Assembly: GCF_019968905.1 (NCBI RefSeq)
Contig: NZ_CP079946.1
Span: 8,343,356-8,407,355 of the forward strand
Reading direction: 5' to 3'
DNA: 64,000 bases
Source: Corallococcus sp. EGB
GTDB lineage: Bacteria; Myxococcota; Myxococcia; Myxococcales; Myxococcaceae
Made by a program: the position numbers and the translations under genes. The notes under the pieces were generated by a model, which saw only the letters and a program-made list of their open reading frames with translations, was not told where the DNA came from and did not search any database. Shown here piece after piece: positions 126 to 21,326 of the stretch; position 1 is the stretch's first letter; every line of letters starts with the position of its first letter.

Positions 126-206
126 GCCGTCATTCCTCCCTTGAGCCCTCAAGGTGGTGACGGCGCACCGTTCCGGGAGCGGCCGGGCGGCCGGGGGCCC
201 CGCTCC

Positions 207-545
207 TCAGTTGAGGTACTGCGGCTTCCTGGCGACTGGCGCCGGGGGCTGGGCCTTCATCATCTCCAGGCCCTGGCGGGTGAGGACGAAGCGGACGACG
301 CCGGAGCCGCGCTCGGTCTCGATTTCGGCCTCGAAGGCGGGCCCGGCGATGCCGCCCAGGGACACGTCCCTGCGCAGGTTGTTCACCCGGCCGGAGAGCA
401 GATCGCCCGCCACCTCGCGCGAGCCCTCGCCGCGCGTGTACAGCTCATAGGCGGCCTCGTGCAGCGTCATGGCCAGCGCCGGGGTGAGGGGCTGGGAGCT
501 GAAGAGCACGGAGATGAGGAGCCAGTAGGGCGTCTGTTCAGCCAT
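207..545 (-). CDS. Hypothetical protein, 112 aa
   Basis: A short soluble protein starting MAEQTPYWLLISVLFSS and ending RKPQYLN. The middle alternates helix-like and strand-like stretches and ends in a short Pro/Ala linker. It looks like a small regulatory or structural protein, perhaps with a winged-helix shape, but no diagnostic motif is visible and I do not assign a function. The longer reading upstream of the ATG at 545-543 runs into the radical SAM gene in another frame and is not real. It lies 22 bases downstream of the radical SAM gene on the same strand, so the two are probably co-transcribed. Confidence 0.6.
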   Translation of the reverse strand: MAEQTPYWLLISVLFSSQPLTPALAMTLHEAAYELYTRGEGSREVAGDLLSGRVNNLRRDVSLGGIAGPAFEAEIETERGSGVVRFVLTRQGLEMMKAQPPAPVARKPQYLN

Positions 546-567
546 CGCTGGAGTGTAACGGGTGCGG

Positions 568-1854
568 CTAGCGGGCGCGCGGCTGTCTGCGGGCGGCGAT
601 GGCCTCCGCGAGCACGCCCTGGGCCTTCCAGTGGCCATACAGGCGGCCCTGGGACGCGAGGAAGTCCAGCCGCTGCCGGGTGCGCGCGTCCAGACGCCCG
701 GGGGCCGCGTCGCGGAAGGGCGTGCCGGGCAGCGGCATGAAGGTGTGGCCATGCACGCGGGCGCCCAGGTCCGACAGCCGCTGCATGAGGTCCAACGTGG
801 CGTCCACGTCCGAGGGCTCTTCCCCGGGCAGGCCCAGGATGAAGTCCACGTTGGGCACGAAGCCGCCCTCCACCGCGAGCCGGGCGGCGCGCACCACGGT
901 CTCCACGTCATGGCCGCGCCGGGTGGACTGGAGGATGCGTTCGGAGCCGGACTGGCCGCCGATGATGAGGTTGTCGTTGGCCACGTAGCGCTTGAGCAGC
1001 GCCAGGGCCTCGGGCGTGACGTGCTCCGGGCGCACCTCCGAGGGGAAGGTGCCGTAGAAGATGCGCCCGTCCGGGGCCGTGGCCTCCTTCACGGCGGCGA
1101 GCAGCTCCTCCACGGCGGCCAGGTTCACGGTCTCGTCGGCGGTGCCGTAGGACAGGGACGTGGGGGTGATGAAGCGCACGTCGCGCCGGCCCATGCGCAG
1201 CAGCTCGCGGGCCCAGTGGGCGATGTTGGGGACGGTGCGGTGCCGGAAGCGCGCCTTGGACATGAAGGGCGTCTGGCAGAAGCGGCACGCGTAGATGCAG
1301 CCGCGGGTGATTTCGATGGCGCCGTACTTCACGTGCTTCACGGCGAACGCGGGGAAGTCGTCCAGGCGCACGCCCTCGCCGTGGCCGTGCTGCACGAGCT
1401 TGCCGTCCTTGAGGTGCGCGGTGCCGTGCGTGGCGCGCGGGTCTTCGCCCTTGAGGACGCGAAGGAGGATGGCGCGCAGGGTGTGCTCGCCCTCGCCCAC
1501 GGCGACGAGATCGAAGCCGGCCTGGAGCGTCTGGAGCGTCTCCGCGGTGGCGTGCACGCCGCCGGCGATGCAGAGGACGTCGCGGCCCTCCAGGCGTTCG
1601 CGCACCCAGTTCAGCTCCTCCACGGAGGGGCCGAAGCTGGCGGAGTAGAAGGACCACGCGGCGACGACGGTGTCGCCCGCGTCCACGCGCTGGCGAAGGG
1701 TGTCCAGCAGGGCCTCGCGGCTGCGAGGGAAGTGCAGCGACACCTCCGCGAGCGCGGGGTCCGACTCCACGGCGCCGGCGAGCACGGTGAAGGCGTACTT
1801 GCCGGGGTACTGGAAGCTCAGGACGAGCGAGACCTTGCGAGGCGTCTGCGACAT
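568..1854 (-). CDS. B12-binding/radical SAM domain protein (TIGR04013-like)
   Basis: A 428-residue protein. The N-terminal ~140 residues look like a cobalamin-binding Rossmann domain (AGGVHATAETLQTLQAGFD followed by GEGE). Next comes a radical SAM core whose cluster motif is CIYACRFC (CxxxCxxC spacing), then GLPGEEPSDVDAT and a TFMPLPGTPF segment typical of methylthiotransferase- and B12-type radical SAM enzymes. It resembles the uncharacterised TIGR04013 family; the substrate is unknown. The start ATG at 1854-1852 is chosen because the longer reading adds a low-complexity extension outside the family. It lies about 0.6 kb from the first cobalamin riboswitch but is transcribed away from it, so it is not under that switch. 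Confidence 0.85.
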   Translation of the reverse strand: MSQTPRKVSLVLSFQYPGKYAFTVLAGAVESDPALAEVSLHFPRSREALLDTLRQRVDAGDTVVAAWSFYSASFGPSVEELNWVRERLEGRDVLCIAGGVHATAETLQTLQAGFDLVAVGEGEHTLRAILLRVLKGEDPRATHGTAHLKDGKLVQHGHGEGVRLDDFPAFAVKHVKYGAIEITRGCIYACRFCQTPFMSKARFRHRTVPNIAHWARELLRMGRRDVRFITPTSLSYGTADETVNLAAVEELLAAVKEATAPDGRIFYGTFPSEVRPEHVTPEALALLKRYVANDNLIIGGQSGSERILQSTRRGHDVETVVRAARLAVEGGFVPNVDFILGLPGEEPSDVDATLDLMQRLSDLGARVHGHTFMPLPGTPFRDAAPGRLDARTRQRLDFLASQGRLYGHWKAQGVLAEAIAARRQPRAR

Positions 1855-1919
1855 GGCGGCCGGGGATACTGCCACAGGGCCTGTCTCCAGCGGGGCACGC
1901 CTGCCCGGTGCGCGGTCAG

Positions 1920-2386
1920 AGGAAGCGGCGCTCCCACTGGCGGGGCTCTTCTTCGGTGAAGAAGCCCCATTCGCCCGTGTGCGCACAGCACGCCCCGCTT
2001 CGCGGTCCGGCCGCTCGCGTCCACCACCTGCTCCTCGCAGATTTGGCGATTCGCCCGCTGCCCGGGCCCCAGAATCCGCTCATTCACCTCGCCGTTCGCC
2101 CGCTTCGCGCACTCCACCAGCACGTGCTCCACGCGGGCCACCTCCGCCGCCTCCTACAGGCGCATCACCGCCGCGGCCTCCGCGGCGCGCGCCGCTGCCC
2201 GTGACAGCCACGGCAAGATGGCGTCCTGGCCCACCTGCGACGCACACGCTGAATGCGCAAGCATCCCGCCGTCGCCGAGTCCATCGTGAACTGCGAGTAG
2301 CTTCGCGGCGTTCGCATCTCCGGGTCCGCGCACGCGGACCACAACGGCAGGCAGCACAGCCACCCCATCCACCGGAGAGGAGTCAT
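1920..2386 (-). pseudogene. Decayed SitA-like / polymorphic-toxin lipoprotein remnant
   Basis: Three pieces in order on the minus strand rebuild the start of a myxobacterial lipoprotein. The first is a lipoprotein signal peptide at 2386 (MTPLRWMGWLCCLPLWSAC, lipobox WSAC). After a frame change near 2240-2260 comes a segment ending AAARAAEAAAVMRL. An in-frame TAG at 2156-2154 interrupts it, and the same frame then continues EAAEVARVEHVLVECAKRAN through GEVNER. The VEHVLVECA...NEV pattern recalls putative lipoproteins of the polymorphic (SitA-type) repertoire; this is from memory, not a search. The C-terminal effector part is missing after about 1950. One frameshift, one nonsense codon and loss of the 3' end make it non-functional. 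Confidence 0.55.
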
Positions 2387-2492
2387 GCCGCGCCTCCTCG
2401 CATGGAGGCACGGGTTCCTTCAATCCGTGACATCCGGCACCGTCCTTGATGCTTGGCGGAGGCGCAGCACACGTCTAACTTGCGCCCTGCCG

Positions 2493-2700
2493 ACGGTGCC
2501 TCACGGGAGTCCGCGAGGTTTAGCAAGGGAATCCGGTGGAACTCCGGAGCTGCCCCGCAGCGGTGAGTGGGAACGAACGCCGTCAGACGCACTGGTCCGG
2601 CAGTCGGACTGGGAAGCGACGGCCAGTAGGCGCCACGGACGTGTCCTCTCGAAAAGAGGCGCGCTCCCGAAGCACGCCCACGAGCCCGAAAACCTGCCGC
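2493..2700 (+). promoter_or_regulatory. Cobalamin riboswitch 1 (upstream of thioesterase)
   Basis: The leader carries the ordered landmarks of an AdoCbl-type aptamer: GGTGCC at 2495, AAGGGAATCCGGTG, the near-invariant GCTGCCCCGCAGCGGTGAG block, ACTGGGAAGCGACGGCCAGTAGG and the B12 box CGAGCCCGAAAACCTGCC ending near 2698. A variable stem-loop (CTCTCGAAAAGAGG) sits where the peripheral arm is expected. The downstream gene starts at 2878, about 180 bases after the aptamer. No strong U-tract terminator is visible there, so control may act on translation or by another structure. Confidence 0.92.
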
Positions 2701-2877
2701 CGGCCCCTGCGGAGAATCGTCTCCTCCAGGGCGGTACCCCGGACCCTCGCGGGAAGGCCCGGCAACCCTTCGCGGTCCGCGCGTCCGCCACCGCCCGTGC
2801 CCCGGGCCCGGGAGTCGTGTGTCCCGGTGTCCCTCCCGCACATGGCGCACGTCCGCTCGGGCCTGGAGTCCCCTCTC

Positions 2878-3288
2878 ATGACGTCCCCTTCCATCCCCTC
2901 GTCCGCCACGGAGACCCGCATGGTGGACATGGTCTTCCCGGATCAGACCAACCACTACGGCACCCTCTTCGGCGGACAGGCGCTGCGCCTGATGGACATG
3001 TCCGCGTTCATCACCGCCAGCCGCTACGCGCGGCGCACCGTCGTCACCGCGTCCAGCGAGCGCGTGGACTTCCACACCCCCGTGCGCCAGGGACAGCTGG
3101 TGGAGCTGGTGGGCCGCGTCGTCGCCACCGGCCGCACCTCCGTCACCGTGGACGTGGAGCTGTTCGCCGAGGACCTCCTGTCCGGCGCGCGACAGCTGTG
3201 CACACGCGGACGCTTCATCCTCGTCGCGCTCGACGCGGAGCGCCGTCCCACCGCTGTACCTCCGCTCGCGCCGGAGAACCAGACATGA
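2878..3288 (+). CDS. Acyl-CoA thioesterase, hot-dog fold (YciA/4HBT type)
   Basis: A 136-residue single hot-dog domain. The segment MVFPDQTNHYGTLFGG followed by ALRLMD is the classic central helix and catalytic loop of YciA/BFIT-type thioesterases, which hydrolyse acyl-CoA to free acid and CoA in the cytoplasm. The segment ending RVDFHTPVRQGQ is the typical following strand. ATG 2878 is preceded by GGAG at proper spacing; the earlier ATG at 2842 lacks a ribosome binding site. The gene sits between two cobalamin riboswitches and is led by the first, so its expression is probably B12-responsive. Its acyl-CoA substrate is not evident; the adjacent operon makes 3-oxoadipyl-CoA, acetyl-CoA or succinyl-CoA possible candidates. 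Confidence 0.88.
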   Translation: MTSPSIPSSATETRMVDMVFPDQTNHYGTLFGGQALRLMDMSAFITASRYARRTVVTASSERVDFHTPVRQGQLVELVGRVVATGRTSVTVDVELFAEDLLSGARQLCTRGRFILVALDAERRPTAVPPLAPENQT

Positions 3289-3299
3289 CAGACATTGCC

Positions 3300-3329
3300 T
3301 TGACACCTGAAACAAGCCGGGCGTATAGA
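3300..3329 (+). promoter_or_regulatory. Sigma70-type promoter ahead of riboswitch 2
   Basis: A perfect -35 hexamer TTGACA (3300-3305) and a good -10 hexamer TATAGA (3324-3329) are separated by 18 bases. The aptamer begins about 12 bases after the -10 box. This placement suggests that the second riboswitch and its operon have their own transcription start rather than relying on read-through from the thioesterase gene. Confidence 0.7.
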
Positions 3330-3339
3330 CGATGCCATG

Positions 3340-3527
3340 CTGGTGCCTGGGTTTGCCCAGGCTGAAAAGGGAACCCGGTCCGAAGCCGGGGCTGCCCCGC
3401 AGCGGTAGGTGAGAACGACCGCCGTCCATCACACTGGCGCCCACGTGGGCGCTGGGAAGTGACGGCCAGTAGGCAACCCGGCACCCCGGTGCCGGACCCG
3501 CTCACGAGCCCGAAGACCTGCCTGCAT
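3340..3527 (+). promoter_or_regulatory. Cobalamin riboswitch 2 (leader of aminotransferase operon)
   Basis: A second full set of cobalamin aptamer landmarks: GGTGCC at 3342, AAGGGAACCCGGT, GCTGCCCCGCAGCGGTAGGTGAG, ACTGG...GCTGGGAAGTGACGGCCAGTAGG and the B12 box CGAGCCCGAAGACCTGCC ending near 3523. The conserved core resembles riboswitch 1 closely, but the variable arms differ (a GGCGCCCACGTGGGCGC arm and a CCGGCACCCCGGTGCCGG stem), so it is not simply a recent copy. It precedes the operon that starts at 3956. Confidence 0.93.
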
Positions 3528-3594
3528 CCGTGCCGTGGGAGACATCCACGGTCGGTTCGACCTGGAGCCCCGAGGGAGGGCGGGAAGGTCCGCG

Positions 3595-3621
3595 CAAGCC
3601 CTTGTTTCTACAGGGCTTTTG
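3595..3621 (+). terminator. Probable intrinsic terminator of riboswitch 2 leader
   Basis: The sequence AAGCCCTTGTTTCTACAGGGCTTTTG forms a 7-bp stem (AAGCCCT/AGGGCTT) followed by a short T run. It lies about 70 bases past the B12 box and 335 bases before the coding region, a suitable place for an expression platform. An alternative pairing with the aptamer side was not computed, so the ligand-dependent switch is inferred. Confidence 0.5.
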
Positions 3622-3955
3622 CCCGGAACATTCCCTCTCTTCCCTTCTGTCTCCAGCCACCCGCGGGGGTGGAGGTCGGTGTCTTCGGGCCCTTTCGCGG
3701 CCTGGGCGCGCGGCAGCGTGCCTGGACACCCCTGCCTCCACCTTCGTGGGTCACTTGCCGGGCGACGCGGGTCGCCCGTGAGGACGGACGACAATGCGTG
3801 GAGTGGTGCGGAGACGGCGCGAGGCAGTGACAGGACACGGAAGCCAGACACGGCCCGCCCGGCCCCGGCTGCGGCGCGGCTGACGCCCTTTCCCGTTTCA
3901 CGTCGCAATTCCTCGCATCCATCGCGGCGTACGCCGCGTGGGGAGACGTCTGCCT
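3622..3955 (+). other. Untranslated leader between terminator and operon start
   Basis: No convincing gene is present; the open frames here are GC-rich shadows. A small hairpin (CCACCCGCGGGGGTGG, near 3657-3672) is the only clear local structure. The final bases GGGGAG at 3940-3945 are the ribosome binding site of the aminotransferase gene. Confidence 0.5.
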
Positions 3956-5302
3956 TTGAACGCCATCCGCTATCCCGACGGGAACGTGCTCCTGCGCAAC
4001 CTGTCGCGCGAGTTCCCCGTCGTCACCCATGGCGAGGGCATCTACCTGTACGACGCCCGGAGCCGCCGCTACCTGGATGGCTCGGCGGGCGCGCTGGTGG
4101 CCAGCGTGGGCCACGGCAACCGCGAGGTGGCGGACCGTATCCATGAGCAACTGCTCCAGGTCGCGTACGTCAACGGCACCCACTTCACGACGGACGTCAC
4201 CGAAGCGCTCGCCACGCGCCTGTGCGCGAATGCGCCCGCGGGGCTGAAACGGGCGGCCTTCCTCGGCTCCGGTTCGGAGGCCATCGAGGCGGCAGTGAAG
4301 TTCGCGCGGCAGATGTGCGTGGAGCGCGGCCAGCCCCAGCGCACGCGCGTCCTCACCCGCGTGCCCGGCTACCACGGCAACACACTCTACGCGCTGTCCA
4401 TGTCCGGACGGCCCCACTACCAGACGTTCTTCGGTCCCATGCTGTCGGAGGTCGTCACCACGCCCGCGCCCTACCCCTACCGCAGCGGCCTGGAAGACTA
4501 CGCGCGGGACGGAGCCGCGCACTACGCGCGGCTGCTGGAGGAGACCCTCCAGCGCGTGGGGCCGGACACCGTCGCCGCGTTCGTCGCGGAGCCGGTCATC
4601 GGCTCGTCGGCGGGAGCGTCCGTGCCTCCGCCCGGATACTTCGAACAGGTGTCCGCCATCTGCCGCCGCCACGGCATCCTGGTCATCGCCGACGAGGTGA
4701 TGTGCGGCTGCGGGCGCACCGGGCGCTTCTTCGCGAGTGACCGGGTGGGGCTCACGCCGGACCTGCTGGTGATGGGCAAGGGCCTGAGCGGCGGCTACGC
4801 CCCGCTGAGCGCGGTGCTGGTGCGCGAGGACCACCTGGAGGAGCTGCGAAAGGGCTCCGGTGGCTTCATGCACGCGCAGACCTACCTCCAGGCCCCGTGC
4901 ATGACGGCCGCGGGCGTGGCGGTGTTGGACTACTACGAGCGGCACGGCCTGGTGGCGCATGCCGCGCGCGTGGGCGAATACCTGCAACGCCGTCTGCGCG
5001 AGGTCCTCCTGCCCCTGCCCCACGTGGGCTCCGTGCAGGGCGTGGGGCTTATCGCGGGCGTGGAACTGGTGGAGGACAAGGCCACGAAGCGGCCCTTCCC
5101 GCGCACGCGCAAGGTGGTGGAGGGGCTGCTCGCGGAGCTGTTCGCGCAAGGGCTCGTCCTCTGGCCCAACACCGGCCACGCCGACGGGACGAACGGCGAC
5201 CTGGTGATGGTGGGCCCTCCGCTGATCATCACCGAGCCCCAGGTGGACGAGCTGGTGGACCTGCTCGCCCGGGGCCTGACCTGCTTCCTGGAGCGGCCAT
5301 GA
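3956..5302 (+). CDS. Class III (PLP) aminotransferase 1
   Basis: A 448-residue fold-type I, class III aminotransferase. The PLP-phosphate loop is GSGSEAIEAAVKFARQ, the PLP-ring Asp lies in ADEVMCGCGRTGRFF, and the Schiff-base lysine is in MGKGLSGGY (about K275 from the TTG). Such enzymes move an amino group from omega- or beta-amino acids, or diamines, to a keto acid. I choose TTG 3956 because GGGGAG lies ten bases before it; GTG 3938 in the same frame is possible but has no ribosome binding site. It opens the riboswitch-controlled operon and its stop overlaps the next start (ATGA). In the proposed pathway it would serve one of two transaminations; which one cannot be told from sequence. Confidence 0.88.
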   Translation: MNAIRYPDGNVLLRNLSREFPVVTHGEGIYLYDARSRRYLDGSAGALVASVGHGNREVADRIHEQLLQVAYVNGTHFTTDVTEALATRLCANAPAGLKRAAFLGSGSEAIEAAVKFARQMCVERGQPQRTRVLTRVPGYHGNTLYALSMSGRPHYQTFFGPMLSEVVTTPAPYPYRSGLEDYARDGAAHYARLLEETLQRVGPDTVAAFVAEPVIGSSAGASVPPPGYFEQVSAICRRHGILVIADEVMCGCGRTGRFFASDRVGLTPDLLVMGKGLSGGYAPLSAVLVREDHLEELRKGSGGFMHAQTYLQAPCMTAAGVAVLDYYERHGLVAHAARVGEYLQRRLREVLLPLPHVGSVQGVGLIAGVELVEDKATKRPFPRTRKVVEGLLAELFAQGLVLWPNTGHADGTNGDLVMVGPPLIITEPQVDELVDLLARGLTCFLERP

Positions 5303-6858
5303 CCTTTCGCATCACCTATTCGGTGTTGGACGCGGACCTGACGGAGCTGCATGCGCGCTTCGACGCGGCGCTCGCCACGGTGCGCACGCGACTGGGCGCG
5401 GAGTACCCGTCGTGGATCGCCGGCAAGGCGCACGCGAGCGGCGACCTGCTGGACAGCCGCAATCCGTCGCGGCCTTCGGAGGTGGTGGGCCGCTTCCACC
5501 GCACCGCCCCCGGCGAGGTGGGCCGCGTGGTGCACGCGGCGAAGGAGGCCCAGCGCGCGTGGGGCGCCACCGCGTGGGAGGAGCGCGTCCGCATCCTGCG
5601 CCGTGCCGCGGACCTCCTCTCCGAGCGCCGGTGGGAGCTGGCGGCGGGGATGACGCTGGAGGTGGGCAAGAACCGGCTGGAGGCGCTGGGCGACGTGGAG
5701 GAGTCCGCGGACCTGCTGCGCTACTACGCCGGCCAGGTGGAGTCCGCGCACGGCTTCCACCTGCCCATGGCGCGCCTGTCGCCTCGCGAGGACACGCGCA
5801 GCGTGCTGCGCCCCCATGGCGTCTTCGTCGTCATCTCCCCGTTCAACTTCCCGCTCGCGCTGGCGGCCGGGATGAGCGCGGGCGCGCTGCTGGGCGGCAA
5901 CGCAGTCATCCTCAAGCCCAGCGAGGACGCCCCCGGCTGCGCCGAGGGCCTCTTCCAGGCGCTGCGGGACGCGGGCCTGCCGGGCGGCGTGCTCCAGGTG
6001 GTGCATGGCGAGGGGGAACTCCTGGGCTCCGCGCTGGTGCGCCACCCCGCGGTGGACGGCGTGGCCTTCACCGGCAGCACGAAGGTGGGCATGGAGATCT
6101 TCCGCCGCCTCACGGAGGAGCACGTGCGGCCCGCGCTGCTGGAGCTGGGCGGCAAGAACGCCGCCATTGTCTGCCGGGACGCGGACCTGGAGGCGGCGGT
6201 GGAGGGTTGCCACCGCTCCGCCTTCGGCATGTCCGGACAGAAGTGCAGCGCGCTGTCGCGCATCTACGTGCATGAAGACGTGCGCCAGGACTTCGTCGCG
6301 CGGCTGGCCCGGAAGGCCCGCGACACGGTGGTGGGGGACCCAGCGCTCGCGTCCGTCTTCATGGGCCCGGTCATCAACGCGGCCTCCGTGCGACGCTTCG
6401 AACAGGCCGTGGCGGAGGCGCGGCGCGACGGCACCGTGCGCGCGGGCGGCGATGTTCCAGTCCTGGACGCGTCGCTGGCGCACGGCCACTTCGTGGCGCC
6501 CACGGTGGTGGAGCTGCCCCACACGCACCGGCTGATGCGCGAGGAGCTGTTCCTGCCCTTCGTCGGCGTGGCGTCCTTCCGCTCGCTGGACGAGGCGCTG
6601 GCGCTGACCAACGACAGCGCCTACGGCCTCACCGCCGGCATCTTCAGCGCGGATCCGGACACGGTGGAGGTGTTCATGGCCCGCGCGGAGGCGGGCGTGC
6701 TCTACGCCAACCGCCGCACCGGCGCGACGACGGGCGCGTGGCCCGGCGTGCAGCCCTTCTGCGGGTGGAAGGCCAGCGGCTCCACCGGCAAGGGCGGCTG
6801 CGGTCCCTATTACGTCTCGCAGTTCATGCGCGAGCAGTCCCAGACCCGGATGGGTTGA
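5299..6858 (+). CDS. Aldehyde dehydrogenase, P5C-dehydrogenase (RocA)-like
   Basis: A 519-residue NAD(P)-dependent aldehyde dehydrogenase. The general-base Glu is E282 in LELGGKN and the catalytic Cys is C316 in SGQKCSALSR, with the usual 34-residue spacing. ISPFNFPLA and FTGSTKVG are the cofactor loops. The SGQKCSA motif and length resemble 1-pyrroline-5-carboxylate/glutamate semialdehyde dehydrogenases, so an omega-semialdehyde of an amino acid is a likely substrate. Its ATG overlaps the stop of aminotransferase 1, indicating translational coupling. The natural partner reaction is oxidation of the semialdehyde made by one of the two neighbouring aminotransferases. Confidence 0.9.
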   Translation: MTFRITYSVLDADLTELHARFDAALATVRTRLGAEYPSWIAGKAHASGDLLDSRNPSRPSEVVGRFHRTAPGEVGRVVHAAKEAQRAWGATAWEERVRILRRAADLLSERRWELAAGMTLEVGKNRLEALGDVEESADLLRYYAGQVESAHGFHLPMARLSPREDTRSVLRPHGVFVVISPFNFPLALAAGMSAGALLGGNAVILKPSEDAPGCAEGLFQALRDAGLPGGVLQVVHGEGELLGSALVRHPAVDGVAFTGSTKVGMEIFRRLTEEHVRPALLELGGKNAAIVCRDADLEAAVEGCHRSAFGMSGQKCSALSRIYVHEDVRQDFVARLARKARDTVVGDPALASVFMGPVINAASVRRFEQAVAEARRDGTVRAGGDVPVLDASLAHGHFVAPTVVELPHTHRLMREELFLPFVGVASFRSLDEALALTNDSAYGLTAGIFSADPDTVEVFMARAEAGVLYANRRTGATTGAWPGVQPFCGWKASGSTGKGGCGPYYVSQFMREQSQTRMG

Positions 6859-6871
6859 CCTGGAAGCCCTC

Positions 6872-8224
6872 ATGCACCCGCTCTATCCCGAAGTGAAGGT
6901 CGCGCCCCCGGGGCCCAACGCCCGCGCCATCATCGACGTGGACCGGCGCTACACGTCGCCCTCGTACATCAAGGAATACCCCCTCGTCGTGGAGCGGGGT
7001 GAAGGCCCCTGGGTGTACGACGTGGACGGCAACCGCTTCCTGGACTTCATGGCGGGCATCGCCGTGGCGTCCACGGGGCACGCGCACCCGCACGTGGTAA
7101 AGGCCATCCAGGAGGCCGCGGGCCGCTTCCTCCACATCTGCGGCACGGACTTCTACTACGACGGCTTCTCGCGCCTGTGCGAGCGGCTCGCGAGCTACCT
7201 GCCAGAGATGGGCCCGAAGAAGGTCTTCCTGACCAACTCCGGCACGGAGGCCGTGGAGGGCGCGCTCAAGCTGGCGCGGCACCACACGCGCCGGCAGACC
7301 ATCATCGCCTTCAAGGGCGGCTTCCACGGCCGCACCTATGGCGCCATCTCGCTCAACTCCTCCAAGGTGGCCCAGCGCGCCTTCTTCGGCCCGCTGCTGC
7401 CGGGCGTGCTGCACATCCCCTACGCCAACCCGTACCGCTGCGGGAACGGCTGCGCACCGGGCGCGTGCGGCGACGCGTGCAACCCGGTGCGCCTGTTGGA
7501 GACGGACTGGTTCGTCAACCACGTGGACCCGCGCGAGGTGGCCGCCATCTTCGTCGAGCCCATCCTGGGCGAGGGCGGCTACGTGGTGCCGCCCGCGGGC
7601 TTCCTCCAGGAGCTGCGCCGTCTGTGCGACGCGCACGGAATCCTGCTGGTGTTCGATGAGGTGCAGTCCGGCATCGGCCGCACGGGGCACATGTTCGCGG
7701 CGGAGCACTTCGGGGTGATGCCGGACATCCTGCTGTCCGCCAAGGGCATCGCGTCCGGCATGCCGCTGGGGGCCATCATCGCGCGTGAATCGGTGATGAC
7801 CTGGCCGCGCGGCTCGCACGGCAGCACCTACGGCGGCAACCCGGTGTGCTGCGCCGCCGCGCTGGCCACGCTGGACGTGGTGGAGGGCCTGCTGGGCGGC
7901 GTGCGCGAAGCGGGAGCGCACCTGGTCTCCGGACTCCAGGCACTCCAGCGCGGGCACCCCATCATCGGCGACGTGCGCGGCGTGGGGTTGATGGTGGGCG
8001 CGGAGTTCGTGCGCCCCGGCACCCGCGAGCCCGCGGCCGCGTACGTGGCGGACCTGGAGCAGCTCGCGTTCCAGAAGGGCCTGCTGCTGCTGTCGTGCGG
8101 CAAGTCCACCATCCGCTTCGCGCCCCCGCTCGTGGTGGGACGGCACGAGGTGGACGTGATGCTGGGCATCCTGGGCGCGTGCCTCCAGGAGCTGGACAGG
8201 CGCCACGGCCTGAAGGCGAGCTGA
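6872..8224 (+). CDS. Class III (PLP) aminotransferase 2, GabT-like
   Basis: A 450-residue class III aminotransferase of the 4-aminobutyrate/5-aminovalerate (GabT) kind. Visible landmarks are TNSGTEAVEGALKLAR, GFHGRTYGA, VEPILGEGGYVVPP, FDEVQSGIGRTGHMF and the PLP lysine in SAKGIASGMPLGA (about K291). The insert RCGNGCAPGACGDAC carries four clustered cysteines, which is unusual for GabT and could bind metal. It is only modestly like aminotransferase 1, so the two are not recent duplicates and probably act on different amino groups. It starts 13 bases after the aldehyde dehydrogenase stop, in the same operon. Confidence 0.88.
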   Translation: MHPLYPEVKVAPPGPNARAIIDVDRRYTSPSYIKEYPLVVERGEGPWVYDVDGNRFLDFMAGIAVASTGHAHPHVVKAIQEAAGRFLHICGTDFYYDGFSRLCERLASYLPEMGPKKVFLTNSGTEAVEGALKLARHHTRRQTIIAFKGGFHGRTYGAISLNSSKVAQRAFFGPLLPGVLHIPYANPYRCGNGCAPGACGDACNPVRLLETDWFVNHVDPREVAAIFVEPILGEGGYVVPPAGFLQELRRLCDAHGILLVFDEVQSGIGRTGHMFAAEHFGVMPDILLSAKGIASGMPLGAIIARESVMTWPRGSHGSTYGGNPVCCAAALATLDVVEGLLGGVREAGAHLVSGLQALQRGHPIIGDVRGVGLMVGAEFVRPGTREPAAAYVADLEQLAFQKGLLLLSCGKSTIRFAPPLVVGRHEVDVMLGILGACLQELDRRHGLKAS

Positions 8225-8225
8225 C

Positions 8226-9134
8226 ATGGACAAGCGCTGTTCGATGAAGGAGGCCATCGCGGCCTCCGTGCACGATGGCGATTCAATCGTCATCGACGGG
8301 TTCACCCACCTCATTTGCTTCGCGGCGGGGCACGAAATCATTCGCCAGGGCCGGCGGAACCTCACCGCCATCCGGCTCACGCCAGACCTCGTCTACGATC
8401 AGCTCATCGAGGCCGGCTGCGTGAAGCGGCTGGTGTTCAGCTGGGCCGGCAACCCGGGCGTGGGCAGCCTGCACGCGCTCCGGCGCCGCAGCGAGGCCGG
8501 CGGCTCCGAGCGGCTGGAGCTGGAGGAGTACTCGCACTTCGGGCTGCTGTCGCGCCTGCAGGCCGCGGCGGCGGGGCTGCCCTTCTGGCCGCTCGACAAC
8601 TACTACGGCGGCGACATCGCGCGGGTGAACGCGAACATCCGCACGGTGCACTGCCCATATACGGGACGGGAGCTGGCCACGGTGCCCGCGCTGCACCCGG
8701 ACGTCACCATCCTCCACTGCCAGCGCGCGGACCCGGAGGGCAACGCCCAGGTGTGGGGCCTGCTGGGCTCGCAGAAGGAGGCGGCCTTCGCGGCGAAGCG
8801 GGTCGTCGTGGTGGCGGAGGAGATCGTCCCCACGGAGGTCATCCGAGCGGATCCGAACCGCACGGTGGTGCCCGGCATCCTCGTCAGCCACGTGGTGCAC
8901 GAGCCCTGGGGCTGCCACCCCAGCTTCGTGCAGGGCTTCCACGACCGGGACAACGACTTCTATGTGAAGTGGGAGGACATCTCGCGCCAGCCGAAGACGT
9001 ACCAGGACTACCTGGAGGCCTTCGTCCACGGCGTGAAGGACCGGCGCGGCTACCTGGAGCGGCTGGAGGCGGGGCTCTTGGACCGGCTGCGGGCGAAGCC
9101 CCGGCCGTGCGCGGGGGTGGACTATGGGTACTGA
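8226..9134 (+). CDS. CoA-transferase subunit A (CatI/glutaconate type)
   Basis: A 302-residue alpha subunit of a family I CoA-transferase. MKEAIAASVHDGDSIVIDGF is the typical opening, and the body (RNLTAIRLTPDLVYDQLIEA, SWAGNPGVGSLHALRR) matches the glutaconate/3-oxoadipate CatI-type subunit rather than the shorter ScoA/AtoD type. With the beta subunit it would move CoA from succinyl-CoA or another donor to a keto acid. The ATG comes one base after the preceding stop, and the 3' end overlaps the beta-subunit gene by 11 bases, as expected for a complex made in equal amounts. Confidence 0.87.
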   Translation: MDKRCSMKEAIAASVHDGDSIVIDGFTHLICFAAGHEIIRQGRRNLTAIRLTPDLVYDQLIEAGCVKRLVFSWAGNPGVGSLHALRRRSEAGGSERLELEEYSHFGLLSRLQAAAAGLPFWPLDNYYGGDIARVNANIRTVHCPYTGRELATVPALHPDVTILHCQRADPEGNAQVWGLLGSQKEAAFAAKRVVVVAEEIVPTEVIRADPNRTVVPGILVSHVVHEPWGCHPSFVQGFHDRDNDFYVKWEDISRQPKTYQDYLEAFVHGVKDRRGYLERLEAGLLDRLRAKPRPCAGVDYGY

Positions 9135-9897
9135 CGCGGCGATGGGCGCCACCGCCAGCGAGCGCATGGCCTTCCGCGCCGCGCGTGAGCTGCGCGATGG
9201 GGACGTGGTGTTCGTGGGCATCGGGCTGCCGAACCTCGCGTGCAACCTGGCGCGGGCCACGCACGCCCCGGGCCTGTTCATGATCTACGAGTCCGGTGCG
9301 GTGGGCGCCATGCCGGAGCGGCTGCCGGTGTCCATTGGCGACCCGTCGCTGGTGACGGACTCGCTCGCGGTGGTGGGGCAGGCGGACATCTTCCAGTCCC
9401 TGCTCCAGCGGGGGCACATCGAGGTGGGCTTCCTGGGCGGCGCACAGGTGGACCGCTGGGGGAACCTCAACACCACCGTCATTGGCGACTACGCGAACCC
9501 GAAGGTGCGGCTGCCCGGCAGCGGCGGCGCGTGTGAGATCGCCGTCCACGCGCGGCGGCTGCTCATCATCATGCGGATGAGCCCGCGCACGTTCGTGGAG
9601 CGGTGCGACTTCATCACCAGTCCGGGCCACCAGATGAACGGCCGCACCCGAAAGGAGCTGGGCATGCCCGGCGGCGGCCCCACGCGCATCATCACCGACC
9701 TGGGCGTGCTCACCTTCGACGAGACGGGCGAGGCGGTGCTCACGGAGGTGTACGAGGGCGTGACGGTGGAGCAGGTGAAGGCCGCCTGCGGCTGGCCGCT
9801 CAGGGTGGCCCCCACGCTGGCGACGGGCGCATCTCCGGACGCGGCGGTGCTGCACCTCTTGCGCGAGAAGCTGGATCCGAAGCGCCTGTATCTCTGA
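9124..9897 (+). CDS. CoA-transferase subunit B (CatJ/glutaconate type)
   Basis: A 257-residue beta subunit. The catalytic Glu that forms the glutamyl-CoA thioester is expected in IYESGAVGA (E56). [29 protein letters not shown] and [16 protein letters not shown] are conserved family features. Together with the thiolase immediately downstream, the best substrate guess is 3-oxoadipate (activity of CatIJ); acetoacetate or another 3-oxoacid is the main alternative. Confidence 0.87.
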
Positions 9898-9925
9898 ATC
9901 CCGCCGTCCCACGGAGCCAAGGGTC

Positions 9926-11125
9926 ATGTCGTCGGAAGCCTTCATCGTCGATGCGGTGCGAACGCCCATCGGGCGCTACCGGGGCGCGCTCCAGGCCGTG
10001 CGGCCGGATGACCTGGCCGCGCACGTGCTCGCCGCGCTGGTGGCGCGGCAGGGCCTGGACGCCGCGCGCGTGGACGAGGTGTTCCTGGGCTGCGCGAACC
10101 AGGCGGGCGAGGACAATCGCAACGTGGCGCGCATGGCGCTGCTGCTCGCGGGACTGCCCCAGGAGGTGCCAGGCGTCACCGTCAACCGCTTGTGCGCCAG
10201 CGGCCTGGAGGCCGTCATCCAGGGGTGCCGGATGATCCGCCTGGGCGAGGCGGACGTGGTGCTGGCGGGAGGCGTGGAGTCCATGACGCGCGCGCCCTGG
10301 TCCATGCCGAAGCCCGAGGAGGGCTTCCCGTCCGGGAAGGTGGAGGCGTGGGACACGGCGCTCGGCTGGCGCTACCCGAACCCCCGGCTGGCGGAGCGCT
10401 TCCCGCTGGAGCAGATGGGAGAGACGGCGGAGAACGTGGCCGCGAGGTGGGGCATCGCGCGCGAGGCGCAGGACGCCTTCGCGCTGGCGTCGCACCAGAA
10501 GGCGGTGGCCGCGCGCGCGGAGGGCCGCTTCGGCAGGGAGCTGGTTCCGGTGGAGGTGCCCCAGCGCAAGGGACCGCCCCTGCGGGTGACGGAGGATGAA
10601 GGCCCCCGCTCCGACACGTCGCTCGCCCGGCTGGGCACGCTGCGCGCCGCGTTCCGCGAAGGCGGGAGCGTCACGGCGGGCAACGCGTCCACGCTCAACG
10701 ATGGCGCATCCGCGGTGCTGCTGATGAGCGAGCGGGCGCTGAAGGCCACCGGCAAGACGCCCCTGGCGCGCTTCGTGAGCAGCGCGAGCGCGGGCGTGGA
10801 CCCGCGCTTCATGGGGGTGGGCCCCGTGCCGTCGACGCGCAAGGCGCTGGAGCGCGCGGGCTGGACGGCGGACGCCCTGGACCTGGTGGAGCTCAACGAG
10901 GCCTTCGCGGCGCAGGCGCTCGCATGCATGCGGGACCTGGAGCTGCCGCCGGAGCGGGTGAACGTGAATGGCGGCGCCATTGCCCTGGGGCACCCGCTGG
11001 GCGCGAGCGGGGCGCGCATCGTGACCACGCTGGTCCACGAGTTGGAGCGGCGGGGCGCGCGGCGCGGGCTGGCCACGCTGTGCGTCGGCGTGGGCCAGGG
11101 ACTGGCGATGACGGTGGAACGATGA
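9926..11125 (+). CDS. pcaF: 3-oxoadipyl-CoA thiolase (PcaF/PaaJ type)
   Basis: A 399-residue thiolase that would cleave 3-oxoadipyl-CoA with CoA to succinyl-CoA and acetyl-CoA. The acylated Cys is C90 in [10 protein letters not shown] (most relatives have NRLCGSG). [17 protein letters not shown] holds the catalytic His and CVGVGQG the second Cys. The stretch [17 protein letters not shown] is the hallmark of PcaF/PaaJ beta-ketoadipyl-CoA thiolases rather than general acetyl-CoA acetyltransferases. The stop overlaps the next start (ATGA). No aromatic-ring catabolic genes are nearby, so the 3-oxoadipate probably comes from the amino-acid steps encoded upstream. Confidence 0.88.
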
Positions 11126-11451
11126 GCCCGCATCCGCCCGAGCCCCGGTCGCTGGCGGTCGCGCTGCGCATCGCCTTCGAGCCGGCCTCTCCGCACGGCC
11201 CCGGCTGGTGCTACCGCGCGACGTTCCACGACGGCGCCAGCGAGTCCGGCCTCCTGCGGAGCCTGGAGGACCTGGCCGCCGTGCTCCAGCGCTGGGGCCA
11301 CGGACTGGAGGGCCTGCCCTGGGCGGAGCTGCCCACCTTCGGAGGCGTTCCTCCCCGCGAGACCGAGGGCGTGTGGAGCTGGGATGCGACGCGGCTGCTC
11401 GTCGGAGACCGGCCGGGCGCCGTGAGGCTGCTTCCCCGCCTGGAGCGCTGA
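11122..11451 (+). CDS. Hypothetical protein, 109 aa, last gene of the riboswitch operon
   Basis: A small soluble protein, translationally coupled to the thiolase by an ATGA overlap. The sequence contains [20 protein letters not shown], then [20 protein letters not shown] and a closing [13 protein letters not shown] segment. No known domain is recognised. A strong hairpin follows directly, so this is the end of the operon. Its position suggests an accessory role for one of the enzymes, but nothing in the sequence tells which. Confidence 0.7.
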
Positions 11452-11460
11452 AGCCCCCGC

Positions 11461-11495
11461 GGAGTCCGCGCCTCGTCATGGGAGGCGCGGACTCC
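11461..11495. terminator. Bidirectional terminator, 14-bp perfect stem
   Basis: GGAGTCCGCGCCTC (11461-11474) and its exact reverse complement (11482-11495) flank a 7-base loop. It lies between the end of the riboswitch operon and the convergent polysaccharide lyase gene and can terminate both. There is no long U tract, as is common in high-GC genomes. Confidence 0.75.
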
Positions 11496-11506
11496 CTCAC
11501 CTGCCC

Positions 11507-12547
11507 TCAGCTCCGACGGCGGCGCGCACGCGCCAGGCCCAGCAGGCCCAGCAGCGAGAACGCGGCCAGCGACCCGCCGCTCGCGGAGCAGCCCCCCTTG
11601 AAGTCCGCGTCACCCTCGCCCTGGTCCAGCGGCGCCGGCTTCACGCCCGTGCCCGGACCCGTGCCAGTGCCCGTGCCCGCATCCACCACCGGGGCCGGGT
11701 CCTGCGGCGTGCCCGCGTCCACCACCGGATCCGGCTCCACCGGGCTGCCCGCGTCCACCACCGGGGCCGGGTCCTGCGGCGTGCCCGCGTCCACCGGCGT
11801 GCCCGCGTCCACCGGCGTGCCCGCGTCCACCACCGGATCCGGCTGCGCCGCCGGGAACACGTCCTCGCGGGTCGTCGCCTGGATGAACCCGTCGTGGTAG
11901 ACGACGCCCACCGGCTTGATGGTGTCGTCCCGGTACAGGCCCAGCTTCAGGTAGTTGTTCTGGCCGGAGAACATCGTCTTCGCCTTGGTCTTCTTCAGCA
12001 CCTGGGTGCCGTTGAGCCACAGCTCCACGTAGCCCACGGTCGCGTCCGGGGACCACTTCACGTGGAAGATGAACTCCTGCCACGCGCCGCGCTTGAGCGG
12101 CGTGCTCCACACCGTGCCGCTGTCGTTCAGCGTCAGGCGGACCTGCTCGCCCTTCACGAAGAACTCCACCGGCGGCGACCCGCAGCACCCGTCGTGGTGC
12201 CACTGCGTGAAGAGCTGCCACGAGTCCACGCTGGGGAAGTCGTTCGCGAACATCACCTTCCAGCGGTACCAGTACTCCGAGCCCACCTTCTCGTTGCTCA
12301 GGTAGACCAGCTCGTTGCGGTTGCCGCTGGAGTTGATGGGGTCATCCCCCTGCTTCACCGTCGCCTTGAGGGCGTACCTGCCTTCGGCCACCGGGCTCGT
12401 CACCACCTGGAGCCGGTCCGAGCTCACCATCTGTTCCGCGCTGTACTGGCTGCGGTTTCCCGTCTCGAAATCGCCCCGCCAGACGATTTCCGCCGCAGCG
12501 AGGCTCGGGATGAGACAAGCCACGAGCCAGAGGTGCAGTGCTTTCAA
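11507..12547 (-). CDS. Secreted polysaccharide lyase-like protein with MYXO-CTERM tail
   Basis: A 346-residue exported protein. A signal peptide (MKALHLWLVACLIPSLAAAE) leads into a ~215-residue beta-jelly-roll domain with features of heparin-lyase-I-like (PF14099) and PL20 lyases: WRGDFETGN, RNELVYL, WLNGTQVL and YLKLGLYRD. A linker of DAGTP/DPAPVVDAG repeats follows (about residues 237-300). The end GGCSASGGSLAAFSLLGLLG plus an Arg cluster is a MYXO-CTERM sorting signal: Cys, hydrophobic helix, basic tail. It is probably processed and anchored at the cell surface, where it would cleave a uronate-containing polymer. The start is TTG 12547, preceded by AAGGA seven bases upstream. Confidence 0.85.
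   Translation of the reverse strand: MKALHLWLVACLIPSLAAAEIVWRGDFETGNRSQYSAEQMVSSDRLQVVTSPVAEGRYALKATVKQGDDPINSSGNRNELVYLSNEKVGSEYWYRWKVMFANDFPSVDSWQLFTQWHHDGCCGSPPVEFFVKGEQVRLTLNDSGTVWSTPLKRGAWQEFIFHVKWSPDATVGYVELWLNGTQVLKKTKAKTMFSGQNNYLKLGLYRDDTIKPVGVVYHDGFIQATTREDVFPAAQPDPVVDAGTPVDAGTPVDAGTPQDPAPVVDAGSPVEPDPVVDAGTPQDPAPVVDAGTGTGTGPGTGVKPAPLDQGEGDADFKGGCSASGGSLAAFSLLGLLGLARARRRRS
11660..11850. repeat. DAGTP-coding short repeats in the lyase linker
   Basis: Near-identical copies of a GTGCCCGCGTCCAC unit code for repeated VDAGTP and DPAPVVDAG steps. The repeats are in frame, so copy number could vary by slippage without breaking the gene. They form a Pro/Asp-rich spacer between the catalytic domain and the surface anchor. 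Confidence 0.7.
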
Positions 12548-12888
12548 TGCTGAATCCTTGGGGGAGGGGGGAGGGAAGCGCTTGATGCTTTGACGGCAAA
12601 GCTTTGACAGACATTACCCCAAACCATTCCCCAGCTTCATTCCCCCCCAAACCCATTCCCAGACGCCTGGCAACGCAGCGGCCAACCAGACAAGCCCTCA
12701 TCCGGCTTGAGACATGTTTCACGACGGGACCCGGCTCTCCGGACCCACCGGGCGGGCGGCGGAGCGGTGTCCTAAACGCAACGCGTCATTGACAAGGGGG
12801 CATCCAGGGGGCTGACGGGACGGGGGCGTGGTGTAAGGTCACGGGCCCTTCCGGCGCTCCCTTCCCGGGGCGCTCATCAGCGTGCCCC
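12548..12888. other. Intergenic region between divergent lyase and astA genes
   Basis: This 341-base gap holds the regulatory regions of both divergent genes. A TTGACA hexamer at 12789-12794 points towards astA but has no good -10 partner at normal spacing. Several pyrimidine-rich stretches occur near 12640. No coding potential, tRNA or repeat is convincing. Confidence 0.4.
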
Positions 12889-13914
12889 ATGCTCGTGCTG
12901 CGAGACGTCCAGAAAACCGACTTGCCCGGCCTGAAGCGTCTTGCCGCGGTGCTGAACACGGTCAACCTGCCGAACAACGAAGAGACGCTCGAGGCCATCA
13001 TCGACAAGTCGGTGAAGAGCTTCGCCGGCAAGGTGAAGAACCCGTTCGAGCGCGAGTACCTCTTCGTGCTGGAGGACGTGCGCAACAGCCTCATCATCGG
13101 CACGTCGATGATCATCGCCCAGCACGGCACGTACGAAGCGCCGCACATCTACTATGAGGTGAGCGAGCGCGAGCACTACTCGGCCTCGCTGGAGCGGCAC
13201 CTGCGGCACAAGGTGCTGTCCATCGCGTACAACTACGAGGGCCCCACGGAGATTGGCGGCCTGGTGGTGGACCCGCCCTACCGCGCGACGCCGGACAAGC
13301 CCGGCAAGCAGCTGTCCTTCGTGCGCTTCCTCTTCATCGCGATGCACCGGCGGCTGTTCCGGCCGCGCGTGCTGGCGGAGCTGTTGCCGCCGCTGCTCCC
13401 GGACGGACGCAGCCTGCTGTGGGAGGCGTGCGGCAAGAAGTTCACCGGCCTCACCTACCTGGAAGCGGACCGGCTGAGCCGCCAGAACAAGGAGTTCATC
13501 AAGGAGCTGTTCCCCGCGTCGGACATCTACGCGTCGCTCTTCCCGGACCGCGTGCAGAAGGTGCTGGGCGAGGTGGGCCCGGCCACGCGCGGCGTGCAGC
13601 GGATGCTGGAGCGGGTGGGCTTCCGGTACGTGGAGCGCATCGACCCGTTCGACGGCGGCCCGCACTTCGAGGCGGACACGGCGGACATCTCCCTGGTGCG
13701 CCGCTACCGCACGATGAAGCTGGCGGAAGAGGACTTCGAGCTGGAGGGCGACGACGTGCTGGTGGCCGCCGAGCGCGACTCCGGCCGCAACCGCTTCCGC
13801 TCCGTGCGCTGCACGGCCCGGCTGGACAACACCGTCATCCACCTGCCCGCGCGCGCCAAGGAGCTCCTCGAAGTGAAGCCCGGCGCGAAGCTGTCCGTCA
13901 TTCCCTTCGAGTAG
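12889..13914 (+). CDS. astA: Arginine N-succinyltransferase
   Basis: A 341-residue AstA-family GNAT-like enzyme, which succinylates L-arginine with succinyl-CoA in the first step of the AST route to glutamate and succinate. The opening MLVLRDVQKTDLPGLKRLA, the blocks NPFEREYLFVLED and LFIAMHRRLF and the C-terminal LEVKPGAKLSVIPFE fit the family and its usual length. No astB-E genes follow here, so the rest of the pathway would have to lie elsewhere. Its 3' end overlaps the convergent neighbour by 17 bases. Confidence 0.85.
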   Translation: MLVLRDVQKTDLPGLKRLAAVLNTVNLPNNEETLEAIIDKSVKSFAGKVKNPFEREYLFVLEDVRNSLIIGTSMIIAQHGTYEAPHIYYEVSEREHYSASLERHLRHKVLSIAYNYEGPTEIGGLVVDPPYRATPDKPGKQLSFVRFLFIAMHRRLFRPRVLAELLPPLLPDGRSLLWEACGKKFTGLTYLEADRLSRQNKEFIKELFPASDIYASLFPDRVQKVLGEVGPATRGVQRMLERVGFRYVERIDPFDGGPHFEADTADISLVRRYRTMKLAEEDFELEGDDVLVAAERDSGRNRFRSVRCTARLDNTVIHLPARAKELLEVKPGAKLSVIPFE

Positions 13915-14941
13915 CGCGCGCCACGCGGAAGTCCCCGCGCAAGAGCGCCAGCCAGCGCTCCCCGGCCTCCAGCGAGGGGCCCTCCGGCGGCACCAGCGCC
14001 AGCGCCAGGTGCGTGTCCGCGCGCACCGGGTCCAGCGACGTGGGGTCCAGGTCCAGCGTCCCGCCGCCCTTCAGCGCCACCCGCACCCAGGCGTGTGGCC
14101 TCGCGGGGCCGCCGTCCACCACCAGCAGCCCGTGCACCAAGCCAACGCGCTGGCCTCGCGCGCTCGCCAGGGCTGCGTAGCGCAGGGCGTGCGCCAGGCA
14201 GCCTCCGGCCTCGCCCTCCCCGCCCTCGCGCCAGTCCGCCGCCGTGGGGCTCTTCTCCGGGAAGGCCGCGTGCACCTTCGCGGCCAGGGCCCGCGCCTCG
14301 GGGGGCGTCCACTCCGTCATGTCCGGCAGGCGCGCGGGGACCGTGAAGGCCGATGCTTCACCGCGAGGTATCAGCCTCAGCGCTCCTGAGGTGCCACCCT
14401 CCACGGGCACGCCGTCCGCGAAGAGCTCCGGCGGCGGCCGCAGCCGCTCCCCCGGGGCTGCCCGGGTGAAGCGGGCGTCGCCCACCTCCAGCACCTGGAG
14501 CCGCCCCTGTTCGTCGTAGCGGGCGCGGAAGCGGGCGCCCAGCATCGTGCCCTCGGCGGTCGTGGCGCTCCGGGCCGTGACGCAGTGGGGGCCCTCCTGG
14601 CCGGACAGCTCCTCGCGGCCCTTCACGCAGCCCTCGGGCGGAGGGCCTCGCCACAACCACAGCGCCTGGGGCACCGCGTCGCCGTCCTTCACGCGGCCCG
14701 CGGCGTCCACGGGCAGCGTCACCTCGCGCACGCGCTCCCCTGCCTGGCCGTCGCGCACGTGCAGGTGCCGGCTGGTGTACGTGAAGCGCCCCGCCTGAAG
14801 GGACAGGCCCACCGTCCCCACCGGCACGCCCCGCCAGGCGAAGACGAAGCGGGCCGAGCTCTTGGCCCTGGCGGCCTCGTCACCGGTGCTGGCAGGGATT
14901 CCCGGGAGCGCCAGCAGGCAGGTGACGAAGAGGGCCTTCAT
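13898..14941 (-). CDS. Secreted transglutaminase-like protein
   Basis: A 347-residue protein with an N-terminal signal peptide (MKALFVTCLLALPGIPAST) and a C-terminal transglutaminase-like core. GGCLAHALRYAALASARG would hold the catalytic Cys, RPHAWVRVALKGGGTLDLDPTS the His and Asp. The N-terminal half (VFAWRGVPVGTVGLSLQAG, TYTSRHLHV) resembles the beta-rich domain seen before such cores in periplasmic proteins. It is probably a periplasmic protease-like or peptide-crosslinking enzyme; the substrate is unknown. It converges on and overlaps astA. Confidence 0.7.
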   Translation of the reverse strand: MKALFVTCLLALPGIPASTGDEAARAKSSARFVFAWRGVPVGTVGLSLQAGRFTYTSRHLHVRDGQAGERVREVTLPVDAAGRVKDGDAVPQALWLWRGPPPEGCVKGREELSGQEGPHCVTARSATTAEGTMLGARFRARYDEQGRLQVLEVGDARFTRAAPGERLRPPPELFADGVPVEGGTSGALRLIPRGEASAFTVPARLPDMTEWTPPEARALAAKVHAAFPEKSPTAADWREGGEGEAGGCLAHALRYAALASARGQRVGLVHGLLVVDGGPARPHAWVRVALKGGGTLDLDPTSLDPVRADTHLALALVPPEGPSLEAGERWLALLRGDFRVARATRRE

Positions 14942-21323: not shown

Positions 21324-21326
21324 CCC

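Follow-up and report, generated by a model that had tools for sequence, protein, structure and literature searches.

Lysine makes up a large share of the protein that myxobacteria eat, and the operon described here may allow one of them to degrade it without B12. The operon lies in a window of 64,000 nucleotides (the whole stretch of DNA analysed) from Corallococcus sp. EGB, contig NZ_CP079946.1, positions 8,343,356 to 8,407,355 of the forward strand. In the lower end of the beta-ketoadipate pathway, CatIJ or PcaIJ activates 3-oxoadipate and PcaF cleaves 3-oxoadipyl-CoA; the operon has a related CoA-transferase and thiolase and would share these last two steps, but it would be fed by an amino acid, and its proteins score under the curated cut-offs. 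Pseudomonas degrades beta-lysine via an N-acetyl intermediate and 4-aminobutyrate; the operon would also degrade beta-lysine, whereas no acetyltransferase was found among the genes of its cassette in NCBIfam and Pfam searches. Proline and ornithine catabolism via 1-pyrroline-5-carboxylate (P5C) dehydrogenase employs analogous gamma-amino aldehyde and cyclic imine chemistry and supplies the closest relatives of the operon's aldehyde dehydrogenase (ALDH), whose proposed substrate is one carbon longer. Finally, lysine fermentation, as set out in passages of PMC3149608, uses KamA, KamDE, Kdd, Kce and Kal (or Kat) and shares with our proposal a start from lysine to beta-lysine by a KamA-family enzyme and an end in CoA esters; the operon differs in having no B12-dependent 5,6-aminomutase, Kdd, Kce or Kal, in proceeding by omega-transamination and oxidation to 3-aminoadipate, and in its end products.

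On genomic evidence we consider it likely that the operon is a B12-independent module for lysine degradation via beta-lysine, 3-aminoadipate and 3-oxoadipate, serving as an alternative when B12 is scarce. The broader claim, which we hold to be probable with somewhat less assurance, is that this is an undescribed and widespread B12-free lysine pathway, that the clade of the KamA paralogue KamA2 is a dedicated lysine 2,3-aminomutase, and that the myxobacterial riboswitch cassette is a bypass of kamDE in B12 starvation. KamA-initiated lysine catabolism is already known; the new part is the B12-free lower half. The first-pass annotation, made by a model from these letters alone, had proposed the route from beta-lysine to 3-oxoadipate and knew of no described pathway of this form, and we likewise found no description of beta-lysine together with 3-aminoadipate, or with oxoadipyl-CoA, in searches of open-access papers, which leave out most subscription journals. 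Any of five names for 3-aminoadipate occurs in only two of those papers, one on a meteorite and the other, PMC9854754, carrying it in a reference title on lysine 6-aminotransferase.

The operon and the steps proposed for it

Seven plus-strand genes follow a cobalamin riboswitch, with intergenic distances of -11 to +28 bases and every reading frame open, in a host genome (G000) of 9.43 Mb assembled as a single contig. The features, in window coordinates, are these.

2427..11506, no strand: inserted cassette with both riboswitches and all genes; its flanks at 2426 and 11507 align to 8852984 and 8853037 of the same-genus genome G010
2477..2715, plus strand: cobalamin riboswitch 1, 5' of the thioesterase TE (RF00174, 81.6 bits; gathering score 31.5)
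2878..3288, plus strand: TE, YciA-like hotdog acyl-CoA thioesterase, 136 aa (PF03061, 69.9 bits for a longer reading)
3324..3539, plus strand: cobalamin riboswitch 2, 5' of the operon (RF00174, 102.6 bits, E 1.5e-24; gathering score 31.5)
3956 (TTG) or 3938 (GTG)..5302, plus strand: AT1, class III aminotransferase, proposed beta-lysine 6-aminotransferase (PF00202, 289.2 bits)
5299..6858, plus strand: ALDH, proposed 3-aminoadipate-6-semialdehyde (1-pyrroline-5-acetate) dehydrogenase (PF00171, 444.1 bits)
6872..8224, plus strand: AT2, GABA/ornithine-like class III aminotransferase, proposed 3-aminoadipate aminotransferase (PF00202, 398.8 bits)
8226..9134, plus strand: CTA, family I CoA-transferase subunit A, proposed 3-oxoadipate CoA-transferase (PF01144, 82.1 bits)
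9124..9897, plus strand: CTB, family I CoA-transferase subunit B (PF01144, 127.7 bits)
9926..11125, plus strand: THL, 3-oxoadipyl-CoA-type thiolase (NF006551, 560.3 bits; cut-off 605)
11122..11451, plus strand: SM, small open reading frame (ORF), 109 aa, kept 3' of the thiolase in G032 and Hyalangium (tblastn, 50-53% identity)

The cobalamin aptamer, the tightness of the operon and the enzyme families (two class III aminotransferases, an aldehyde dehydrogenase, both subunits of a family I CoA-transferase and a 3-oxoadipyl-CoA-type thiolase) are as the first-pass annotation had described them. It had missed a second riboswitch, at 2477-2715 before the thioesterase, and also that ~2427-11506 is absent from the matching place of G010. 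The stretch [17 protein letters not shown] is indeed present in the thiolase, its standing as a hallmark being that annotation's own statement.

We infer the substrate of each enzyme and the order of the steps from these families. A KamA-family lysine 2,3-aminomutase, encoded elsewhere in G000 and within the operon in some Elusimicrobia, would convert lysine to beta-lysine, from which AT1 would remove the 6-amino group to give 3-amino-6-oxohexanoate (3-aminoadipate semialdehyde), cyclising to 1-pyrroline-5-acetate. ALDH would oxidise the imine or semialdehyde to 3-aminoadipate, AT2 would take off its 3-amino group to leave 3-oxoadipate, CTA/CTB would form 3-oxoadipyl-CoA, and the thiolase would split this into succinyl-CoA and acetyl-CoA.

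The closest solved chain to AT1 is the class III protein 3i4j, followed by chains labelled 4-aminobutyrate, putrescine and omega transaminase. AT2 scores 582.1 against NF004426, above its cut-off of 552, and 377.8 against the 4-aminobutyrate transaminase model TIGR00700, under the cut-off of 506.65; 3-aminoadipate is a substituted GABA, which suits the GABA- and ornithine-type relatives of AT2. CTA is closest among solved chains to glutaconate CoA-transferase 1poi, and the CoA-transferase falls under the cut-offs for 3-oxoacid CoA-transferases (PcaIJ, Sco), with 52.8 against 128.5 for TIGR02429 and 68.8 against 243.55 for TIGR02428. The thiolase reaches 552.0 bits with the PcaF model TIGR02430 (cut-off 597) and 488.9 with the general thiolase model TIGR01930, above its cut-off of 240.55.

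The eight best matches of ALDH among solved chains are all either P5C dehydrogenases or PutA proteins with a P5C dehydrogenase in them, and it scores 401.7 against the P5C dehydrogenase model TIGR01237, under the cut-off of 659.65. At the position of the carboxylate-binding loop of P5C dehydrogenases, ALDH has N(R/K)xxG(A/S)(T/S)TGAWP, three residues longer than in those enzymes, and the greater length, read from alignments, is kept in all 56 further loci with an ALDH match. (A strict loop pattern was too narrow for this purpose: it matched 24 of 90 loci and passed over the majority of core operons.) On chemical grounds, removal of the 6-amino group from beta-lysine should give a gamma-amino aldehyde that closes to 1-pyrroline-5-acetate, the P5C analogue with one more carbon, and for such a longer cyclic imine a longer loop would be expected.

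In NCBIfam and Pfam searches, none of kamD, kamE, kdd, kce and kal was found among the cassette genes, and no match was found for the small ORF (searched in a slightly longer reading). TE scores about 55-56.1 bits against the YciA model (cut-off 162) and was also tried as a Kal-type ammonia lyase, a candidate we rejected on a weak local match of 23 bits to the Kal model (cut-off 160); we take it as a thioesterase because of the difference between these two scores. The leader before AT1 (3790-3955) exceeds its counterparts in G032 and Hyalangium by ~160 bases and cuts the homologous ATG off from the gene; the start codon of AT1 in the window therefore seems to be TTG or GTG.

Association with KamA-family aminomutases

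The first-pass annotation had pointed to kamA and kamDE as genes to look for, and G000 has both. Its kamA scores 490.2 bits against TIGR03820 (cut-off 525.4), and beside it (L025:8325-10936) lies a divergent paralogue, KamA2, which scores 186.9 against the same model and is under every NCBIfam aminomutase cut-off. Elsewhere in the genome are kdd, kamD, kamE, kal and kce, each above its own NCBIfam cut-off, which with kamA make a complete B12-dependent lysine route. Beta-lysine is thus predicted to be available in G000 through kamA.

Both KamA and KamA2 match, at the thresholds used, only one solved sequence, the lysine 2,3-aminomutase 2A5H. There, D293 and D330 hold the amine of the lysine side chain, and the CxxxCxxC motif, R134 and K337 are further active-site residues. 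The two aspartates are kept in 43 of 43 KamA-family proteins (25 of 25 in the KamA group and 18 of 18 in the KamA2 group, the latter including L177 and L178, only 37% like KamA2). The motif cysteines and R134 are kept in 24 of 25 KamA proteins, the exception being one truncated fragment, and in 18 of 18 of the KamA2 group; K337 is likewise kept in both groups, and in KamA2 it lies one residue nearer to D330 than in 2A5H.

The operon itself recurs in distant bacteria. A scan for relatives of CTA, one genome per species, gave 579 loci, and the best 80, at 54-83% identity, were analysed; they come from Myxococcota, Bdellovibrionota, Elusimicrobia, Gemmatimonadetes, Chloroflexi and others. Within 8 kb of CTA in these 80 there is a CTB in at least 73, an ALDH in at least 47, an AT2 in at least 43, an AT1 in at least 33 and all five genes in at least 17, numbers that are lower bounds because many loci are cut by contig ends. 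The conserved core is AT1-ALDH-AT2-CTA-CTB, and the thiolase is not part of it. An amino-acid permease related to GadC antiporters, under the cut-off, lies 3' of CTB in a Gemmatimonadetes locus (L188:10268-11785), and a similar one, read by eye, lies 3' of CTB at L100:8149-9564.

For 50 of the 80 loci (L074 to L111, L152 and 11 others, some holding only CTA and CTB) the genomes were searched. There is a KamA-family match in 39 of the 50, at 160 bits or more in 37 and above the TIGR03820 cut-off in 5, and a kamD match in 5, full length only in Hyalangium. The first-pass annotation had staked its reading on a 2,3-aminomutase accompanying the operon, and of the 17 full-core loci all but L083, 16 in number, lie in genomes with a KamA-family match, which reaches at least 160 bits in 15.

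Two classes were sampled more densely, with p values that take no account of shared descent. Among 149 Gemmatimonadetes genomes (the class of G075, L090), 31 have a strong KamA, and these include every one of the 9 with a strong CTA (p 2.6e-7); leaving aside the previously known G073 and G075, the count is 7 of 7 (p 6e-6). Strong KamA here means at least 290 bits, a level reached by 31 of the 42 matching genomes (if all 42 are counted, p for 9 of 9 is 6e-6), and 4 of the 13 genomes matching CTA, those at 19-33 bits, were dropped. A kamD occurs in 1 of the 149, and in G168 the KamA gene is ~5 kb from CTB on the opposite strand. Among 147 Elusimicrobia genomes (the class of G087, L102), KamA2 accompanies a strong CTA in 26 of 34 genomes and occurs in 18 of the 113 others (p 1e-10); without the 12 previously known genomes the figures are 18 of 22 and 18 of 113 (p 3e-9). 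For these counts, strong CTA was set above 420 bits, dropping 12 of 46 genomes, and KamA2 was called by eye from score and span in 44 of 75 genomes with any match (in G294 it is in pieces). Of the 26 genomes with both, 18 have them on one contig, with KamA2 0.9 to 21 kb downstream of CTA in the same orientation; in the other 8 the two are on different contigs. The order in L189 and L190 is AT1-ALDH-AT2-CTA-CTB-KamA2 with no gene between, so that KamA2 is the last gene of the operon; in L191 further genes stand between CTB and KamA2. Together with kamA in G000 and the co-occurrence, this linkage gives genomic support to the proposed route from beta-lysine to 3-oxoadipate.

Near the Gemmatimonadetes operon of L188 (L188:15448-19395), a KamA gene is followed by two genes that by eye resemble ATP-grasp ligases, a possible sign that beta-lysine is used in another way as well. 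In G187:C410 and G233:C296 of the Gemmatimonadetes sample, a weak KamA-like gene adjoins a weak CTA-like gene; this pair is perhaps another aminomutase pathway.

Proposed control by B12 and probable gain of the cassette

B12-independent isoenzymes of the metE type are under B12 riboswitch control, as related in a part of PMC11260477, and in both cases a riboswitch governs a B12-free alternative, although here that alternative would be an entire branch of catabolism, carried on an inserted cassette. We infer from the riboswitch family that the operon is repressed when B12 is plentiful and on when it is scarce. With the operon shut by B12, lysine would then be handled by the genome's own kamDE-kdd-kce-kal route. 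Repressing a stand-in by B12 is reasonable only in a genome that has the B12-dependent route too, and the riboswitch stands 5' of the operon in the window, in G032 and in Hyalangium, all three of which have kamD, while none was found before the operon in 26 other CTA loci scanned. Of these 26, 18 are in genomes without a kamD match, L132, L153 and L080 have weak or partial kamD matches, L135 (which offers only ~230 bases before the first core gene) and L188 have none, and L189 to L191 lie outside the kamD search; the count leaves out G054 and the Archangium draft L081, whose contigs begin inside the operon, and L066, cut at the operon. This distribution fits the first-pass suggestion of a B12-independent alternative to kamDE.

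Bases 3540-3640, after the second aptamer, fold better than shuffles with z -2.7 and are at most a candidate expression platform, and a promoter scan of 2300-4000 gave no consensus site. A TTGACA-like box at the edge of that aptamer is conserved in three genomes and is only a lead. Three further cobalamin riboswitches occur in one stretch at L071:6972-14001, one of them, by eye, seemingly 5' of an outer-membrane receptor gene; 14 of the 15 other genomes of the genus also carry three or so such riboswitches, and one has two.

The cassette, 9.08 kb long, is absent from the matching site of G010, where its edges are ~50 bases apart. The alignment to G010 runs at ~92% over window positions 1-1983 and 11507-30000 and at 82% over 2007-2426; left of the site, G010 has ~3.4 kb of its own DNA with a duplicated piece, and for these reasons the left edge is less sure. 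Among 16 genomes of the genus searched, the close CTA is confined to G000, and the remaining 15 show no more than a paralogue at 35-37%; outside the genus, CTA identity is 84% in G032, 75% in G054 (another family of the same order) and 51% in G027 and G028. G032 and Hyalangium versicolor, as the neighbourhood comparison proposed in the first-pass annotation brings out, have one riboswitch followed by the same genes, with TE in the same cluster 3' of the small ORF. A tree of CTA groups the window with these two (98/95), the next neighbours, Bdellovibrionota and L080, joining in an unresolved fork. Gain of the cassette by transfer seems the simpler reading, the other being its loss from all sister species. 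A scan of viral contigs with AT1 found no match.

A TIGR04013-type B12-binding radical SAM protein (568-1986, minus strand) adjoins the cassette; it lies outside the insert and is common to G010. In G027 (locus L066), a same-family myxobacterium in which kamD gave no match, a related cluster has a different gene order, with part of an aminotransferase gene and then ALDH-CTA-CTB-AT2, at ~50% identity.

Alternative readings and significance

The steps might come in another order, with the CoA-transferase acting on 3-aminoadipate and AT2 serving as an acyl-CoA beta-transaminase from 3-aminoadipyl-CoA to 3-oxoadipyl-CoA. Such chemistry has a precedent in lysine catabolism in Kat, a class III enzyme that, in the passages of PMC3149608 on lysine fermentation, acts on 3-aminobutyryl-CoA; AT2, however, is closest to the GABA and ornithine type, which the description of Kat there as HemL-like sets apart, and CTA/CTB resemble transferases for keto acids or glutaconate, so that we think this order unlikely. 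It is distinctly improbable, in our view, that the product of the KamA-family enzymes, and hence the compound degraded by the operon, is a different beta-amino acid (beta-ornithine, beta-arginine or beta-glutamate): KamA2 is under the cut-off of every named aminomutase model, but both aspartates that bind the lysine amine in 2A5H are kept in all 43 proteins, and, from the chemistry, only beta-lysine would yield both the 3-oxoadipyl-CoA thiolase substrate and a five-membered imine.

The same enzyme classes would fit the degradation of cadaverine or polyamines, AT1 and ALDH giving 5-aminovalerate, AT2 and ALDH glutarate, and CTA/CTB glutaryl-CoA, and both the glutaconate CoA-transferase closest to CTA and the putrescine and polyamine transaminases among the solved relatives of AT1 point that way, whereas the thiolase is 3-oxoadipyl-CoA-like and ALDH is P5C-dehydrogenase-like. 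With a KamA-family gene in the operon of L189 and L190, and neither a decarboxylase nor a glutaryl-CoA dehydrogenase in the cassette, we regard this reading as very improbable and set it aside. The operon could also serve as a 3-oxoadipate branch in the breakdown of aromatics, adipate or 6-aminohexanoate, its link to KamA an accident of shared lineages. Its thiolase and CoA-transferase do resemble beta-ketoadipate enzymes, 22 Gemmatimonadetes genomes have KamA without CTA, and KamA can also serve an osmolyte, N-acetyl-beta-lysine (as reported in a part of PMC3543383), by which the link could be accidental. Yet the cassette has no ring-cleavage or beta-oxidation genes, two aminotransferases would be left unused, and KamA2 is inside the L189/L190 operon, which together make such a branch hardly credible.

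Several observations weigh against B12-independent degradation of lysine via beta-lysine as we propose it. ALDH, CTA, CTB, THL and both aminomutases score under the NCBIfam cut-offs for exact named activities, so that names such as PcaF and P5C dehydrogenase denote neighbours and not identities. Only 3 of the 80 loci have a thiolase near CTA, in most of them it is outside the cluster, and some loci have no ALDH, or lack one aminotransferase, beside CTA. No KamA-family match was found in 11 of the 50 CTA genomes, including that of the full-core locus L083 and that of L092, a Planctomycetes draft of 5.8 Mb which carries AT1-ALDH-AT2-CTA; such a match is present in 8 of 14 control genomes, which makes KamA presence in CTA genomes weak when taken alone. 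In Gemmatimonadetes, a strong CTA and a kamD match are both missing from 22 of the 31 genomes with strong KamA, and KamA must therefore have other uses there. The co-occurrence p values ignore shared descent, and their cuts were set after the lists were seen. Finally, the three riboswitch-bearing loci are close kin in one clade and may represent one event.

If the proposal that the operon degrades lysine via beta-lysine, 3-aminoadipate and 3-oxoadipate is correct, it would provide a B12-free entry of beta-lysine into central metabolism and a new branch of lysine catabolism, and would give functions to two aminotransferases, an aldehyde dehydrogenase and a KamA clade now annotated only in general terms. 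It would also explain in part why some genomes keep a KamA-family gene without a lysine 5,6-aminomutase, and would extend the control of B12-free stand-ins by B12 riboswitches from single enzymes to a whole pathway.

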